Part shown: piece by piece, positions 3,610 to 9,020 of the stretch
How the letters are laid out: each line of letters starts with the position of its first letter
Position numbering within the stretch: position 1 is the first letter of the stretch
Program-made: the position numbers and the translations under genes
Assembly (NCBI GenBank): GCA_002698785.1
Contig: PAAG01000051.1
Location: forward strand, 186,001-250,000
Direction of reading: 5' to 3'
From: Verrucomicrobiales bacterium
Lineage (GTDB): Bacteria > Verrucomicrobiota > Verrucomicrobiia > Verrucomicrobiales > DEV007
Length of the DNA: 64,000 bases
Notes under the pieces: generated by a model
Told to the model about the DNA's origin: nothing
The model's input: only the letters and a program-made list of their open reading frames with translations
Database searches by the model: none

Positions 3610-5145
3610 CTAGAGTCTTCTCCATTCGTGACTATCGTGCTCGAGAAGCTCGTCCGCCTCCTTGGGGCCCCATGATCCAGCTGGGTATTCTGCCATTTTT
3701 GGAGGGTTCGGAGACTTGTGCCAGGCATCCTCGATCTGATCGACATATCTCCATGCGGTCTCAACCTCGTCTTTTCGCGCAAAGAGCGTAGCATCTCCCG
3801 CCATAGCGTCGAGTAGCAGACGCTCGTAGGCCTCGGGGCTGCTCTTACCAAAGCTGGTCTGGTAACGAAAATCCATTTTCACCGCCTGAAGTGTCGCGGC
3901 TGGTCCGGGTCGCTTGGAGCGCATGCCCAGAGAAATTCCCTCGTTCGGCTGAATACGGATTACGAGTACGTTACCGGGCATTGCCTCGGCACCCACCGCG
4001 GCGTTGAAGAGAACGTTCGGTGCTTTCTTGTAGTGGATGGAAATCTCGGTTCCTTTCTTTGGCAGGCGCTTGCCCATGCGGACATAGAAAGGCACGCCTT
4101 CCCAGCGCCAGTTGTCGATCATGATCTTCAACGCGACGTAACTCTCTGTCATGGAACCGGGATTCACTCGATCTTCCCGTCGGTAGCCCACGACTTCTTC
4201 ACCATTCACCGTTCCCGCGGTGTACTGAGCTCGAATGACGCTGTTCCCGACGTCTTCTGCATTTTTGAATGGGCGAAGTGACTTTAGCACTTTTACTTTT
4301 TCATCACGAATGCCATCGGCAGTGAGATCTGCCGGCGGTTCCATAGCAATCAAGCTGAGCAGTTGAAGAAGGTGATTCTGCACCATATCTCGCAAGGCGC
4401 CGGACTTGTCGTAATAGCCACCACGACCACCCTCCATCCCGAGATCTTCGGAACAGGTGACCTGGACATGATCGATGAACTGGTTATTCCACAACACCTC
4501 GAAAAGGTGATTGGCGAAACGAAGCACCATGATGTTCTGCGCTGTTTCTTTGCCCAGGTAGTGGTCGATCCGGAAGGTATCCTTCTCATCAAACACCTCA
4601 TTCACCACATGGTTGAGGTGCTGAGCAGTGGCGAGATCGGTGCCGAAAGGTTTTTCGACAACAGCACGGCACCATCCGCTCTCCGACTCGTTGAGGCCGG
4701 ACTCCCGTAAGTGGAGTAGGATGTCGTCGAAGAACTCAGGAGCCGAAGCAAGATAATAAAGGCGATTAGGGCTCGCGCCCTCTTTCTCCATCTCATCGAG
4801 GCGCTTCTTCAATGCGACGTATCCTTCGCCGTCGTTGAAGTTGCTCTCGTGATAGAAAATGTTCTGTGAAAATTGTTCCCAGAGGTCTTCGTTGTGCCCT
4901 TGGCGGGAAACCTCTCGGTTCAGTTTCTCCAGTCCCTCGCGAAATTCCTCGTCTGATTTTTCACGGCGGGCAAAGCCAACGACCCGCAGCCCCGCAGGCA
5001 AGTCACCATCGGCTGCCAAGTTATAGAGCGCAGGAATCAGCTTCCGGTGCGTGAGGTCTCCGGTTGCACCGAAGATCACAAGTATGCACGACTCCGGATG
5101 GTTCCTCAGACTCAGGTCAGCTTCTCGGAAAGGATTCTCTTCCAT
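3610..5145 (-). CDS. zwf: Glucose-6-phosphate 1-dehydrogenase
   Basis: The 511-residue product matches family length. The N-terminal Rossmann motif G-A-T-G-D-L lies near residue 25, and the active-site sequence RIDHYLGKE near residue 192 contains the substrate-binding His and Lys. The enzyme oxidises glucose-6-phosphate to 6-phosphogluconolactone with NADP+ (or NAD+), the entry step of the oxidative pentose phosphate pathway in the cytosol. It stands alone, without 6-phosphogluconolactonase or gnd beside it; transaldolase, from the same pathway, is encoded about 14 kb away in this window. Confidence 0.97.
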   Translation of the reverse strand: MEENPFREADLSLRNHPESCILVIFGATGDLTHRKLIPALYNLAADGDLPAGLRVVGFARREKSDEEFREGLEKLNREVSRQGHNEDLWEQFSQNIFYHESNFNDGEGYVALKKRLDEMEKEGASPNRLYYLASAPEFFDDILLHLRESGLNESESGWCRAVVEKPFGTDLATAQHLNHVVNEVFDEKDTFRIDHYLGKETAQNIMVLRFANHLFEVLWNNQFIDHVQVTCSEDLGMEGGRGGYYDKSGALRDMVQNHLLQLLSLIAMEPPADLTADGIRDEKVKVLKSLRPFKNAEDVGNSVIRAQYTAGTVNGEEVVGYRREDRVNPGSMTESYVALKIMIDNWRWEGVPFYVRMGKRLPKKGTEISIHYKKAPNVLFNAAVGAEAMPGNVLVIRIQPNEGISLGMRSKRPGPAATLQAVKMDFRYQTSFGKSSPEAYERLLLDAMAGDATLFARKDEVETAWRYVDQIEDAWHKSPNPPKMAEYPAGSWGPKEADELLEHDSHEWRRL

Positions 5146-5214: not shown

Positions 5215-6159
5215 TCATTCGACGCCAGTGACGAGGTTTCTCCCTGGTTTTCTGGGGCTTGCGATCCACTCCCTTTCCTTTCTGAACGGGAGGTTTTCCG
5301 GAGTTTTCACCTCGCTCGCGAGCCCCACCCAGATCAGACAACGGATAAACATCCAGCCCGGATCAGCCTGCGCTCCGGTAAAGCCAAGCCGAGCCGATTC
5401 TGGATAGGCATGGTGGTTATTGTGCCAGCTTTCCCCCATCGTCAGGAGCCCTAGGTGCCTCAGGTTGTAGCCCTGCACAGCGTTGTTGTGGAGGTGCCAG
5501 TCCCTGTCGCCACTATTGTGCGCAAAATGGCCTATTAGCCAATGGCCACTTAAAGACAGGAAAATGCGAACCGAGATTCCCCATGCCACCCAGGTCCAAC
5601 CTCCGGCGAAAAACAATAGAATGGCCAGGGGCAACTGCTGCGCCATCCAGGTTCTCTGGAGAAAGCGATAGAAGCGATCGTTCGCAACCTCCTCCTCAAT
5701 CGTGAATTGCGGAGGATAAGTCAGCCGTATTCCGCAATGGAGATTCCAGAACCAATCCCGGACAATGCCGGCCTTGTGAATAAAAAACGGATGGCAGGCA
5801 TCATGTCTCTGCGACCAATCCCGTATATCGTGGAGCCGGATCATCCCAAAGGGGCCTCCCATCCCAACTAACGTCCCCAGATAGACAAGAAGATGCTCAA
5901 GCCAAAGCGGTGCTTTCCAGCTACGATGAATGAGCAATCGGTGCAGGCCGACACTGTGACCACAGCAGAGCGTCACGACAGTCAAGGCGCCGCATACTGA
6001 TGCCGCCTTCCAGTCGAAGAAGAAGGGGACTGTCACGACGGCAACCAGGGCGTGAAAAGAATACCAGATCGACTTCACCGGGTTCCAGTAGACGGTCCCT
6101 TCCACCGGGTTCGTCTCCGCATTCCCGGGTTTCATTCTTTCTGTTTCGATCTGTTTCAT
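5215..6159 (-). CDS. Membrane fatty acid desaturase (acyl-CoA/acyl-lipid type)
   Basis: The 314-residue product has the histidine clusters of di-iron membrane desaturases: H-R-L-L-I-H near residue 73, an H-D-A-C-H box near 117 (in place of the usual HxxHH), and H-N-N-H-H near 245, between hydrophobic segments. It should introduce a double bond into fatty acyl chains in the cytoplasmic membrane. It is the last gene of the minus-strand unit beginning at 8353 and preceded by a GbsR-family regulator, so membrane lipid adjustment is probably part of that unit's job. The second box differs from the canonical form and may affect specificity. Confidence 0.87.
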   Translation of the reverse strand: MKQIETERMKPGNAETNPVEGTVYWNPVKSIWYSFHALVAVVTVPFFFDWKAASVCGALTVVTLCCGHSVGLHRLLIHRSWKAPLWLEHLLVYLGTLVGMGGPFGMIRLHDIRDWSQRHDACHPFFIHKAGIVRDWFWNLHCGIRLTYPPQFTIEEEVANDRFYRFLQRTWMAQQLPLAILLFFAGGWTWVAWGISVRIFLSLSGHWLIGHFAHNSGDRDWHLHNNAVQGYNLRHLGLLTMGESWHNNHHAYPESARLGFTGAQADPGWMFIRCLIWVGLASEVKTPENLPFRKEREWIASPRKPGRNLVTGVE

Positions 6160-6190: not shown

Positions 6191-7012
6191 CTATTGGACA
6201 GACACCGGTGGCCCCATCCAGACATCAATCACTCCTGCACTTTGGTGAGCCCCAACCAGGCTCATATTCGCCGCCCACGCTCCCAGTCCGTTGATCAGCG
6301 CATCGTCCTGCCATTCAACTTCCTTGAGAGCGTTAACCCTCCAAGGCTCGTGCCAAATGCGGAATCGCTTCAGTGTTCCGCCTTCCCCGGCGTATGCGGT
6401 GTATCGCTCGACAAGAAACTCGTCGAGGGAGTTCTCCATGACAGGCTGGGGCGCGAGTTCTCCTTTACCGCGGTATCGAAACTCGGCCTTATCCGTCGCC
6501 ACTTCGCCCGATACCTCGGGTAGTGTATTCGTATATTTGATAGAGGCATTCCTGTAGGGAAGCCCGTAAGTCCCGGGACCAAGCGCAACCGCCAAGCGGT
6601 TGTTTAGCCATTCGCTCATGAAGTATATCCCTGCTTCCCCCCGGAATCGCGCATAGGTCCGAAGATTGAAAAACTGATGAGTCGCTATAGGGGCCGTCAG
6701 CCATCGCGTCGCGATTCCCCCTCGAGAAAATCGCATCCCTCTGAGCGTAAAGGCGACGAGACTAACAAACGCCCTGCCTTCCCTAAGATCCAAGGGGATT
6801 GGCACAACCCTTTGGAGGAGATCCGGCTCGACTTCAAAATGGAGAAAGACGACTTCTGTCCAGTCAGCAATGAAGAGACGGCCAAAACGATCTTCTTCAA
6901 TCAACCGCCGAGCATAGGCCGCGTCATGCTTGCTGGCATCGAATTTTCCGCGATGCCCCCTTTCACTGAATTTCGCAGGTTTCGGACAGGTGATGTCGCG
7001 GAGAATCGTCAT
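6191..7012 (-). CDS. YqjF/DUF2071 family protein
   Basis: The 273-residue product resembles the DUF2071 (YqjF-like) family: an N-terminal region with IADWTEVVFLHFEVEP near residue 48, then VPIPLDLREGRAFVSLVAF near 71. No membrane segment or signal is seen. Biochemical function of the family is not established. It lies 9 bases downstream of the epimerase gene (start of that gene's stop at 7022) and 31 bases before the desaturase start, so it is almost certainly in the same operon. YqjF-like, TIGR01777-type epimerase and DCC genes are, to my knowledge, often neighbours, which supports a shared process. Confidence 0.78.
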   Translation of the reverse strand: MTILRDITCPKPAKFSERGHRGKFDASKHDAAYARRLIEEDRFGRLFIADWTEVVFLHFEVEPDLLQRVVPIPLDLREGRAFVSLVAFTLRGMRFSRGGIATRWLTAPIATHQFFNLRTYARFRGEAGIYFMSEWLNNRLAVALGPGTYGLPYRNASIKYTNTLPEVSGEVATDKAEFRYRGKGELAPQPVMENSLDEFLVERYTAYAGEGGTLKRFRIWHEPWRVNALKEVEWQDDALINGLGAWAANMSLVGAHQSAGVIDVWMGPPVSVQ

Positions 7013-7021
7013 GGCAGCAAA

Positions 7022-7996
7022 CTATCGAGGCAGAGGGTTCAAGGCTGGCTTTCCGCTGGCGATGTGCACACCCGGTCGCAACAGGTCGACGAGTGCATCT
7101 TCCAGTTCGTGAAATCGAAAGTGAAAGCCAAGCCCGTGGATTCTGCAGGGCAGGCCACGCCGACCATTCAGAGCCAACTCCGGATCGGCATTGACTATTG
7201 GTGCCGCTACCCGCAGCAACCAATCCGGGGTCGGAATCCCAAACGGCACCCTAAGCACTCGCCGTAAGGTCGCCATGAACTCTGCATTGGGAACCGGCTG
7301 CAAACCGGTCGCGTTACAAATCCCGTACACAGCCGGGTTCTCGATAGCCTCGAGAAAGACCCGCACCATATCGTCGACGTGAACCCAACTGATCCACTGC
7401 TTCCCACTGCCAATGCGACCACCCATTCCGAATCGAGCGAGGTTTGCCAAAGCAGGTAAGGCTCCCCCATCACTACCGAGGACAAAGCCGATACGCAGCA
7501 TCGCCCATCGCATCTCTGGTCGAATGGCTTTTCCCAACGCTTCTTCCCAGGCAACGCAGACATCCGTTGGATACTCGTCCGGAATGAAACCGGTTTCGTC
7601 GCAGACCCGGTCTCCCGCGTCTCCATAGATCGCAAGACTGCCTGCCTGGACCCAGACCTCGGGGACCCGATAGACGAGTCTCAGCGCATCTCCAATCGCA
7701 CGGACCGAATCGACCCTTGAAGTAAGGATCTCTTCTCGATTTTTCTCTGTCTGGCGGCAGTTCACATGTTTCCCGACCAAGTTTACAATTGCCTTGGCCC
7801 CCTCCATCTCAGCGGCCCAACTTTCCTCAACAGTCTTCGCATCCCAGAATACTGCCCTAGCCCCTTCGGGGCATGCTTGTGGATTTCTGGTCAACACGAC
7901 GACTTCATATTTCCTCCGCAAGAGCGCACTGATCAGAGCCCGCCCCAGGAACCCTGTTCCACCAGCAACCACTACTTTCTCTTTCTTCTGATTCAT
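7022..7996 (-). CDS. TIGR01777-type NAD(P)-dependent epimerase/dehydratase
   Basis: The 324-residue product begins with a Rossmann nucleotide-binding motif G-G-T-G-F-L-G near residue 12. It then has the SDR-like core (IVNLVGKHVN near 70, VQAGSLAIYG near 116) and a C-terminal region matching the DUF1731 tail found in the YfcH/SulA-like group. The catalytic Y-x-x-x-K of classical SDRs is not obvious, as is usual in this group. Substrate unknown; it presumably binds NAD(P) in the cytosol. It sits 18 bases downstream of the DCC gene and 9 bases upstream of the YqjF-like gene. Confidence 0.85.
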   Translation of the reverse strand: MNQKKEKVVVAGGTGFLGRALISALLRRKYEVVVLTRNPQACPEGARAVFWDAKTVEESWAAEMEGAKAIVNLVGKHVNCRQTEKNREEILTSRVDSVRAIGDALRLVYRVPEVWVQAGSLAIYGDAGDRVCDETGFIPDEYPTDVCVAWEEALGKAIRPEMRWAMLRIGFVLGSDGGALPALANLARFGMGGRIGSGKQWISWVHVDDMVRVFLEAIENPAVYGICNATGLQPVPNAEFMATLRRVLRVPFGIPTPDWLLRVAAPIVNADPELALNGRRGLPCRIHGLGFHFRFHELEDALVDLLRPGVHIASGKPALNPLPR

Positions 7997-8014: not shown

Positions 8015-8353
8015 CTAGATTCGGCACGCTCCGCCCGTCCCAATGCAGTGCCTGTTTGCCGCAACTTTCTCGTAGAGCTTGTTTGCCACCCAGTGCACTG
8101 GAGGAAGCATTCCGAGCCATCCCGCTGGTGCGGCCCACCAGACCTTTCTCAGCAGAAAAAAGATCACGTCTACGCCCCCGAGGACTCGCCCGTCCTTCCG
8201 GCGAAGTTTCATTTCCGGTTCCGCAGCGCCATTTTCGAAGGGCTCAATTTCCACGTGAGCCTTCTTCAGCAGAAAGCCCAGCTTCCTGACCCCTCCCCGG
8301 CACATCCGGCAGGTATCGTCGTAAAACAATGTTGCGTGGGTCTTGTTCTTCAT
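8015..8353 (-). CDS. DCC-family (DUF393) thiol-disulfide oxidoreductase-like protein
   Basis: The 112-residue product starts with FYDDTCRMCRGGV near residue 10, the family's Y-D-x-x-C-x-x-C motif, followed by a hydrophobic pair of segments around residues 62-80 and a C-terminal Cys-containing tail. The CxxC suggests a thioredoxin-like redox role, but this has not been proved for the family. It is the first gene of the four-gene unit running to the desaturase. An operator-like palindrome (8361-8380) ends 8 bases before its ATG, and no good Shine-Dalgarno sequence is visible there. Confidence 0.83.
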   Translation of the reverse strand: MKNKTHATLFYDDTCRMCRGGVRKLGFLLKKAHVEIEPFENGAAEPEMKLRRKDGRVLGGVDVIFFLLRKVWWAAPAGWLGMLPPVHWVANKLYEKVAANRHCIGTGGACRI

Positions 8354-8360
8354 TTCAGTA

Positions 8361-8380
8361 ATTTCTGTTAAGAGAGAAAT
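8361..8380 (-). promoter_or_regulatory. Operator-like palindrome upstream of the DCC-to-desaturase operon
   Basis: ATTTCTGT-N4-AGAGAAAT, 8-bp arms with one mismatch. It lies 8 bases upstream of the DCC start codon. The same element, perfect, lies at the identical distance before the regulator gene at 8947-8966. The GbsR-family product of 8400-8939 is the natural candidate to bind both. An AT-rich stretch just upstream (8381-8400) could hold the -10 region, so a bound repressor would cover the transcription start. Confidence 0.65.
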
Positions 8381-8399
8381 CCATTTTTAAATAAAAAAG

Positions 8400-8939
8400 T
8401 CACTTCACAAAGGTTCCGATAGATTTGGCTATTTTGTCGCTCATCCGAATCGCTTTGATCGCGTGCTTAGTAGGTAGACGATCCATCTTGTCGTAAAAAT
8501 CACTTACCAGCTCGAAAAATCCCAAAAGTTGCTCGAGTTGGTCCTTGGCATAAGCATCTCCCGCCTCATGGCTCTCGCCCGCTTCGACCGCACAATCCCG
8601 AAGGTTTCTCAAAGTAGGATCGATTTCCCGCCGTTTGCGCTCAGCCGCGATGATTCGAAACATTTCATACACATCCTGAATGGAGGCGAAATGATCTCGC
8701 CGGTCACCAGCCAGGTGAACGACTCGAACAATTCCCCAGTTCTGCAATTCTTTCAGACTGTTGCTAACGTTCGAACGGGCCACCCCGAGCTGCTCGCAGA
8801 TTTGCTCGGCATTCAATGGCTCCTCGGAAATGAATAACAGCGCGTGGATCTGGGCGACTGTTCGATTGATCCCCCATTTGGTGCCCATCTCTCCCCAGTG
8901 GAGGATAAAGTGTTGGGCAAATGGTGGAAGATCCTTCAT
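8400..8939 (-). CDS. GbsR/MarR-family transcriptional regulator
   Basis: The 179-residue product has a winged helix-turn-helix domain (about residues 20-90). The recognition region LNAEQICEQLGVARSNVSNS is near residue 41, followed by a wing containing the G-D-R-R-D-H-F motif typical of the GbsR group. The C-terminal half is helical and probably dimerises. GbsR relatives usually repress nearby genes and sense a small ligand such as choline or a membrane-linked signal. The gene is preceded by a perfect operator-like palindrome and followed by the DCC-epimerase-YqjF-desaturase genes, which carry the same element. Autoregulation plus control of that operon is inferred. Confidence 0.88.
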   Translation of the reverse strand: MKDLPPFAQHFILHWGEMGTKWGINRTVAQIHALLFISEEPLNAEQICEQLGVARSNVSNSLKELQNWGIVRVVHLAGDRRDHFASIQDVYEMFRIIAAERKRREIDPTLRNLRDCAVEAGESHEAGDAYAKDQLEQLLGFFELVSDFYDKMDRLPTKHAIKAIRMSDKIAKSIGTFVK

Positions 8940-8946
8940 TTTCGAA

Positions 8947-8966
8947 ATTTCTGTCTTTACAGAAAT
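8947..8966 (-). promoter_or_regulatory. Perfect operator-like palindrome upstream of the GbsR-type regulator gene
   Basis: ATTTCTGT-N4-ACAGAAAT, perfect 8-bp arms, ending 8 bases before the regulator's ATG. A TATAGA hexamer directly upstream (minus strand) could be the -10 element, which would place the start of transcription inside the palindrome. It matches the element at 8361-8380 in sequence, arm length, spacer and distance to the start codon. Confidence 0.7.
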
Positions 8967-9020
8967 CTATAAAACATGTTCGAGCAAGCTCTTTTTCCGC
9001 ATTTCCAACTATTTCCCTTG

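Follow-up and report, generated by a model that had tools for sequence, protein, structure and literature searches.

On the minus strand of the window, as the whole 64,000-nucleotide stretch analysed here is called, a gene for a GbsR/MarR-type regulator of 179 aa (8400..8939) is followed by four genes read in the same direction. The first of them encodes a DCC1-like thiol-disulfide oxidoreductase of 112 aa (8015..8353; PF04134, 7.6e-10), and then come the genes for a TIGR01777-family NAD(P)-dependent epimerase/oxidoreductase (SDR) with DUF1731 (7022..7996; TIGR01777, 8.7e-71, above the cut-off), a DUF2071 (YqjF-like) protein (6191..7012; PF09844, 3.3e-36) and a fatty acid desaturase-like protein (5215..6159). 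The last assignment lies below threshold, the PF00487 match (1.1e-05) reaching 25.8 bits against a cut-off of 29.7 and the match to the DesA family (1.3e-14) falling far under its cut-off. A glucose-6-phosphate dehydrogenase gene (3610-5145) comes 69 bases after the desaturase gene; since this gene is found within the downstream run in 9 of the 80 related loci described below, it may be co-transcribed with the operon in the genus to which the window belongs.

The regulator contains a MarR-type winged helix domain (MarR_2, PF12802; 2.3e-12, 47.3 bits against a cut-off of 27), and its nearest solved structure is MJ223 (PDB 1ku9), recognised both by sequence (phmmer 4.9e-14, profile 1.8e-19) and by fold. 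The AlphaFold2 model of the protein (mean pLDDT 88.5, pTM 0.75) has 1ku9 as its best Foldseek match (7.0e-11, TM 0.57/0.64), the other close solved structure being Bcav_2135 (5jbr; profile 3e-08, fold 2.6e-09), with 26% identity to MJ223 and 24% to Bcav_2135 in the fold alignment. The operator of MJ223 is described as unknown in the available part of PMC7396694. The model for the choline regulator CudC gives this protein 48.7 bits, far under its cut-off of 218, and choline sensing is thus unsupported; the GbsR-type assignment holds at the family level. Among the neighbouring genes that were identified, none is of choline or betaine type.

Two 20-base palindromes, both predicted operators, lie on the minus strand of this locus. 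Operator A (ATTTCTGTCTTTACAGAAAT, 8947-8966), upstream of the regulator gene, is the perfect palindrome ATTTCTGT-N4-ACAGAAAT, and operator B (ATTTCTGTTAAGAGAGAAAT, 8361-8380), upstream of the DCC gene, is an imperfect one with 1 mismatch and a TTTCTCT half-site. Seven bases separate each 20-mer from its ATG (8939 for gbsR, 8353 for the DCC gene); thus, both palindromes begin at -8, and the initial annotation, which had described two palindromes on the same strand at this distance from a start codon, was right in this respect. Its description of the operators as identical has to be amended, as operator B differs in one half-site, by a change common to the nearest relatives, and the upstream context differs too. 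A TTGC resembling a -35 element (8984..8987) begins 22 nt before the core of operator A; in its place, operator B has a T-tract (TTTTTTATTT, 8389..8398), whose last T lies 10 nt before the core. This core starts 20 nt past the stop codon of gbsR, which is co-directional, and transcription of gbsR would run into it.

Within the window, the 20-base pattern has three matches at no more than 3 mismatches, compared with an average of 0.25 in 100 dinucleotide shuffles, and the third of them (6852-6871, 3 mismatches), inside the DUF2071 gene, looks like a chance match. A scan of the whole genome (7,015,219 bases), which had been proposed as a check, showed that no sites other than operators A and B match the 20-mer with fewer than two mismatches; five further sites have two, and a reversed control pattern gives one. 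On the basis of the shuffles, the genome scan and the counts across related loci, a chance origin of the palindromes was rejected.

The conservation of the sites was followed in the best 80 of 122 loci encoding a relative of the regulator, which together with the window make 81. Sites were counted against an 18-base core (TTTCTGT-N4-ACAGAAA), allowing at most 3 mismatches for site A and at most 2 for site B, limits that were our own choice. The nearest of these loci come from records titled as Verrucomicrobiales, Verrucomicrobiia and Akkermansiaceae MAGs, and the more distant of the best 80 from records titled Planctomycetota, Phycisphaerae, Acidobacteria and others. Site A stands directly upstream of gbsR in 78 of the 81 loci (44 perfect, 25 with one mismatch, 8 with two and 1 with three), a count that overstates independence, as the loci are the closest matches, mostly MAGs, and related to each other. 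The three misses are L081, where the upstream sequence is N, L097, which has a TTCAGT/ACTGAA variant with 4 mismatches, and L106, where the site stands before an SDR gene that precedes gbsR. In 20 further loci of the same operator class (class I), several of which belong to the same organisms as the 80, site A was found in 19 at the same limit and not in L149.

Site B is found just past gbsR in 45 of the 79 loci with enough sequence, leaving 34 without it. In 12 of these 34 (e.g., L042, L046 and L058), no more than 70 nt separate the start of the epimerase match from the end of the gbsR match, and therefore the genes there look like one operon, with the counterexamples of L039, L041 and L089, in which the two are equally close and site B is nevertheless present. 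When the 728,488 bases of the 80 loci were searched at no more than one mismatch to the core, 99 places were obtained, with about 0.05 expected from base composition. Sixty-eight of them lie before gbsR, 28 directly after it and 3 elsewhere: in L083 and L108 in front of a gene further along the run, and in L106 in front of the SDR gene that is upstream of gbsR. The whole arrangement also occurs in L098, from a record titled Alphaproteobacteria; its gene order and sites resemble those of L087 and L088, which come from Phycisphaera-type records, and either gene transfer or a mis-binned contig would account for this. In L091 (4965-4998), the palindrome is nested in a longer one (CTGTAATTTCTGTTTAGACAGAAATTACAG plus one or two more base pairs per side), and such outer half-sites recur in many A and B sites, those on the right abutting or overlapping the start codon, hinting at a second dimer.

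A second comparison was made with 95 related genomes, 46 of which have an orthologue of the regulator at E <= 4.9e-65, and one more (G031) a fragment of 44 residues that is 68% identical. The exact 18-mer is present in 34 of the 46 genomes with a close orthologue and in none of the 49 without it (Fisher p 5.6e-16, a value to be taken as a guide only, since the genomes are related). By comparison of coordinates, 32 of the 36 places of the exact 18-mer lie immediately before gbsR. Two others precede an epimerase/YqjF operon on another contig (G050, G057) and one a desaturase gene on another contig (G001), and thus the palindrome also precedes genes of the operon that have left the regulator; the last, inside a hisC-like gene (G041), is taken as chance.

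The palindrome also changes with the type of regulator. In a sister set of 20 homologues at 35-46% identity, every gene (20/20) has just upstream of its start a palindrome within 1 mismatch of one of three related patterns, a count that is descriptive, as the patterns were read off the same loci. The class II pattern, TTTCAG-N6-CTGAAA, is found in 16 of the sister loci, and TTTCTGAAATTTCAGAAA or the class I pattern in the other 4. The recognition helix follows the same division: it is of the type SRGNANTNL in the 16 and ARSN in the 4, as in class I (ARSNVSNSL, half-site TTTCTG). There are exceptions among the class I loci, with one TTTCAG half in L064, L068, L075, L076, L078 and L110, one ACTGAA half in L061, L092, L094, L095 and L101, and both halves in L097, whose helix is ARSN. 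The sites of L064 and L068 just upstream of gbsR combine one class II half with one class I half (TTTCAGAACAGACAGAAA and TTTCAGAAATGACAGAAA), and these operators are possibly intermediates between the two classes.

Several of the sister genes adjoin a desaturase, a DCC protein or a small membrane protein. A protein of this last kind, of about 120-180 aa as called and with a motif like RTLFKNGRIFL, lies beside both classes of regulator: in L078 (7424-7795), in similar form in L073, L075, L077, L079, L083, L088, L098, L102 and L103, and, also by eye, in L126, L131, L132, L134 and L140. The copies in L078 and L098 gave no Pfam match, and the protein looks like an unnamed member of the putative regulon.

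It could be argued that these palindromes are bound by another regulator and that gbsR is merely one member of the operon so regulated. The restriction of exact sites to genomes with a close orthologue and the variation of the palindrome with the regulator subfamily and its recognition helix, even with the exceptions listed, both go against this explanation, which is therefore considered most improbable. The initial annotation had proposed an autoregulated local regulon comprising the DCC, epimerase, YqjF and desaturase genes, to be abandoned if relatives with the same operon lacked the sites. What was found instead is that the sites are conserved with the operon, precede its genes where these have moved and differ between regulator subfamilies. 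Taken together, these comparisons of sequence make it very probable that the GbsR-type regulator governs such a regulon, its own gene included.

The two sites differ consistently in what precedes them. A TTG[AC] element at -28 to -19 before the core is present in 72 of the 78 A sites and in only 4 of the 45 B sites, and from the first base of this element to the start of the A core the distance is mostly 21, 22 or 26 nt. Thus, the palindrome covers the -10 or start region, and a bound repressor would exclude RNA polymerase. At B, at least 6 of the 7 bases from -16 to -10 are T in 33 of 45 sites, against 1 of 78 at A, a regularity noticed in the same 45 loci in which it was counted, so that the sister class is the nearest to an independent test. 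A run of at least five T occurs in 30 of the 45, ending at -10 in 22 and at -14 in 6; in these 6, the runs are of the form TTTTTATTT and the last T is again at -10. The T-tract is missing in 12 of the 45 B sites, which tells against the roadblock proposed below, as does the lack of site B in 34 loci.

In the sister class, a class II site is present in the 400 nt that follow gbsR in 10 of the 20 loci, at a limit of 2 mismatches, and at the same offset at least 5 of 7 bases are T in 9 of these 10 and at least 6 in 7 of them. When 387 genomes of the phylum were searched for a T6 run followed by the palindrome at a free gap of 4-22, 4 matches were obtained, too few to carry much weight: the window itself (gap 13, run TTTTTTATTT), two at a gap of exactly 9 and one at a gap of 14.

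The core of site B differs as well. In the 43 loci with both sites, core position 5 is always G at A; at B, 23 have G, 19 have C and 1 has T. This C is confined to 19 of the 21 nearest loci with both sites (L035-L069, L071, L089 and the window) and does not occur elsewhere, and G is retained in other verrucomicrobial loci (e.g., L074, L082 and L099). The equivalent of this position is altered in 9 of the 10 sister B sites.

Taking this asymmetry into account, the following mechanism is proposed. The product of 8400-8939 would be a GbsR-type winged-helix repressor that recognises both palindromes, presumably as a dimer. Operator A would lie in the gbsR promoter behind the -35-like element, where the bound repressor would keep RNA polymerase out and limit its own synthesis. 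At B, polymerase that has escaped repression at A would most likely meet the same protein as a roadblock. A polymerase stops about 14 bp before a tight roadblock, and therefore the 3' end of the RNA would fall in the T-tract or near it, where the weak RNA-DNA hybrid would favour release. Basal transcription would thus supply repressor and none of the DCC-epimerase-YqjF-desaturase products, until a ligand frees both sites and a single transcript runs through the operon. We infer binding, repression, the roadblock and the existence of a ligand from the arrangement of the locus and its relatives. The explanation as a whole, with one repressor at both sites, occlusion at A and a roadblock at B, is given a probability of roughly 0.55. 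Promoter occlusion at A appears the surer of the two actions, and for the roadblock at B the chances are judged to be even.

The ligand is perhaps related to lipids or redox state. Besides the desaturase-like gene, relatives show an MBOAT-type domain fused to DCC, as well as DoxX-like and YndJ neighbours, and hence a membrane-lipid or redox signal is a reasonable guess only.

Another origin for the T-tract would be an ordinary intrinsic terminator of gbsR, of which it would form the tail and which would stand close to the operator by coincidence. A few loci agree with it, since a stem of -6 kcal/mol or better precedes the T-run in 6 of the 45 (e.g., L063, L075 and L076). However, the 23 nt before the T-run have a median folding z of -0.17 relative to shuffles, and no terminator-like site was found between 7900 and 9100 of the window. 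Moreover, the distance of the tract is constant to the operator and not to the stop codon of gbsR, which lies 17-146 nt from B, and in L083 the tract keeps its place at -16 to -10 despite another gene standing between gbsR and the site. As a general source of the T-tract, an intrinsic gbsR terminator was rejected on the folding, the terminator scan and L083, and the explanation is held to be quite unlikely.

More serious is the proposal that the operon has a second, independent promoter to which B belongs. The T-tract would then serve that promoter as an AT-rich spacer or upstream element, and the repressor would block both promoters alike, giving two transcripts with short leaders. The fixed distance between tract and operator would suit this scheme, as would the A at -1 in 37 of the 45 B sites and the ATG at core position 17 that opens a frame of at least 90 aa behind B in 14 of the 45, compatible with a nearly leaderless start. 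Furthermore, the relocated sites of L115 and L116, behind a co-directional nitrilase-like gene, have 1 and 1 T of 7, and that of L108, behind a co-directional DCC gene, has 3 and no T-tract; thus, exposure to read-through alone fails to predict the tract. On the other hand, the columns from -9 to -2 and from -45 to -17 at B carry less than 0.55 bits each, with neither a -10 nor a -35 conserved, and, as already mentioned, TTG[AC] is found at just 4 of these sites, the 12 of 45 that show it at -11 owing it to the end of the T-tract. A consensus promoter scan of the minus strand between 7900 and 9100 gave none, in phyla whose promoter hexamers are poorly known. It also weighs against a second promoter that the sites presumed to have one of their own (L106, L115, L116 and L117) have 1, 1, 1 and 4 T at -16 to -10, and all show TTG[AC] upstream. 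This proposal is possible, on the doubtful side. In the relocated epimerase/YqjF operons of L115 (2506-2523) and L116 (2089-2106), a TTGC starts just 8 nt before the core; if this were a -35, the operator would sit between -35 and -10.

The position of the start codons bears on the length of the leaders, which the initial annotation had supposed to be very short or absent for both transcripts. Past the core midpoint, the first start codon of gbsR falls at core position 26 in 34 of 78 loci, corresponding to the -8 distance of the window, and at position 17, a register 9 nt closer, in 12 of 78, where it shares the final base of the 18-base core. In several planctomycete A sites (e.g., L072, L075 and L078), an AGGAG stretch lies between core and start, and leaders there would be short but not absent. 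Thus, a short leader is plausible for gbsR, whose start overlaps the end of the palindrome in those 12 loci, and doubtful for the DCC operon, as it would need a second promoter, of which the scan and alignments above gave no sign in the sequence.

Some components of the proposed mechanism have precedents. According to the available part of PMC7396694, GbsR of B. subtilis works as a roadblock from an A/T-rich inverted repeat with a 4-bp spacer that lies downstream of the start site, and OpcR acts by covering the -35 region. The resemblance to these regulators (gbsAB, opuB, opuC) lies in the GbsR-type MarR protein and, for GbsR, in the inverted repeat with a 4-bp spacer (PMC7396694, as far as available), the site of the window being a predicted operator with N4. 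The difference is that here a single regulator would have two sites that look like one of each mode, that the genes are others, with none for choline or betaine, and that a T-tract stands at a fixed distance before the second site.

In C. trachomatis, the trpRBA operon also has the regulator gene first and an operator in the gap behind it; through this operator, behind trpR, a second promoter is repressed and transcripts from the upstream one are made more prone to terminate (PMC6504234, in the part available). In that system, the gap site is bound by another regulator, the iron-dependent YtgR, and the alternative promoter has been mapped (same part of PMC6504234), whereas the two sites of the window have one palindrome in common and B shows no visible promoter. 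By analogy with an operator that works in both modes, a mixture of the two may be possible at B.

Roadblocks in general, by LacI and other proteins, consist of a DNA-bound protein that stalls polymerase, which may then backtrack or be released with the aid of Mfd (available part of PMC10310618), and the likeness to operator B lies in the DNA-bound protein proposed to stall polymerase there. A T-tract at a fixed distance before the operator is absent from the portion of PMC10310618 at hand, whose text has 'T-tract' 0 times. Among the matches listed for the GbsR, DCC/DUF2071 and roadblock literature, which give partial coverage, there was no paper on this GbsR-type twin-operator system.

Returning to the roadblock reading, a more specific version of it can be put forward tentatively, with chances somewhat short of even. 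Operator B and its T-tract would form a terminator lacking a hairpin, active only when the repressor is bound, in which the U-tract releases the RNA; a leaky autoregulated promoter would thus feed the repressor gene and leave the operon silent. Such a device would be conserved across Verrucomicrobia, Planctomycetota and Acidobacteria and would be shared by two subfamilies of regulators whose operators differ.

To our knowledge, few regulons have been mapped in these phyla. With this locus, a GbsR-type regulator without adjoining choline genes gains a well-defined candidate operator, and the candidate regulon is made up of little-studied membrane and redox genes (DCC, TIGR01777 epimerase, DUF2071 and desaturase and, in relatives, DoxX-like, YndJ and MBOAT-type). 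If the reading given here to the T-tract is true, a repressor and its targets would share one promoter and yet differ in expression, and the T-tract placed before an operator would provide a sequence signature for repressor-gated termination.
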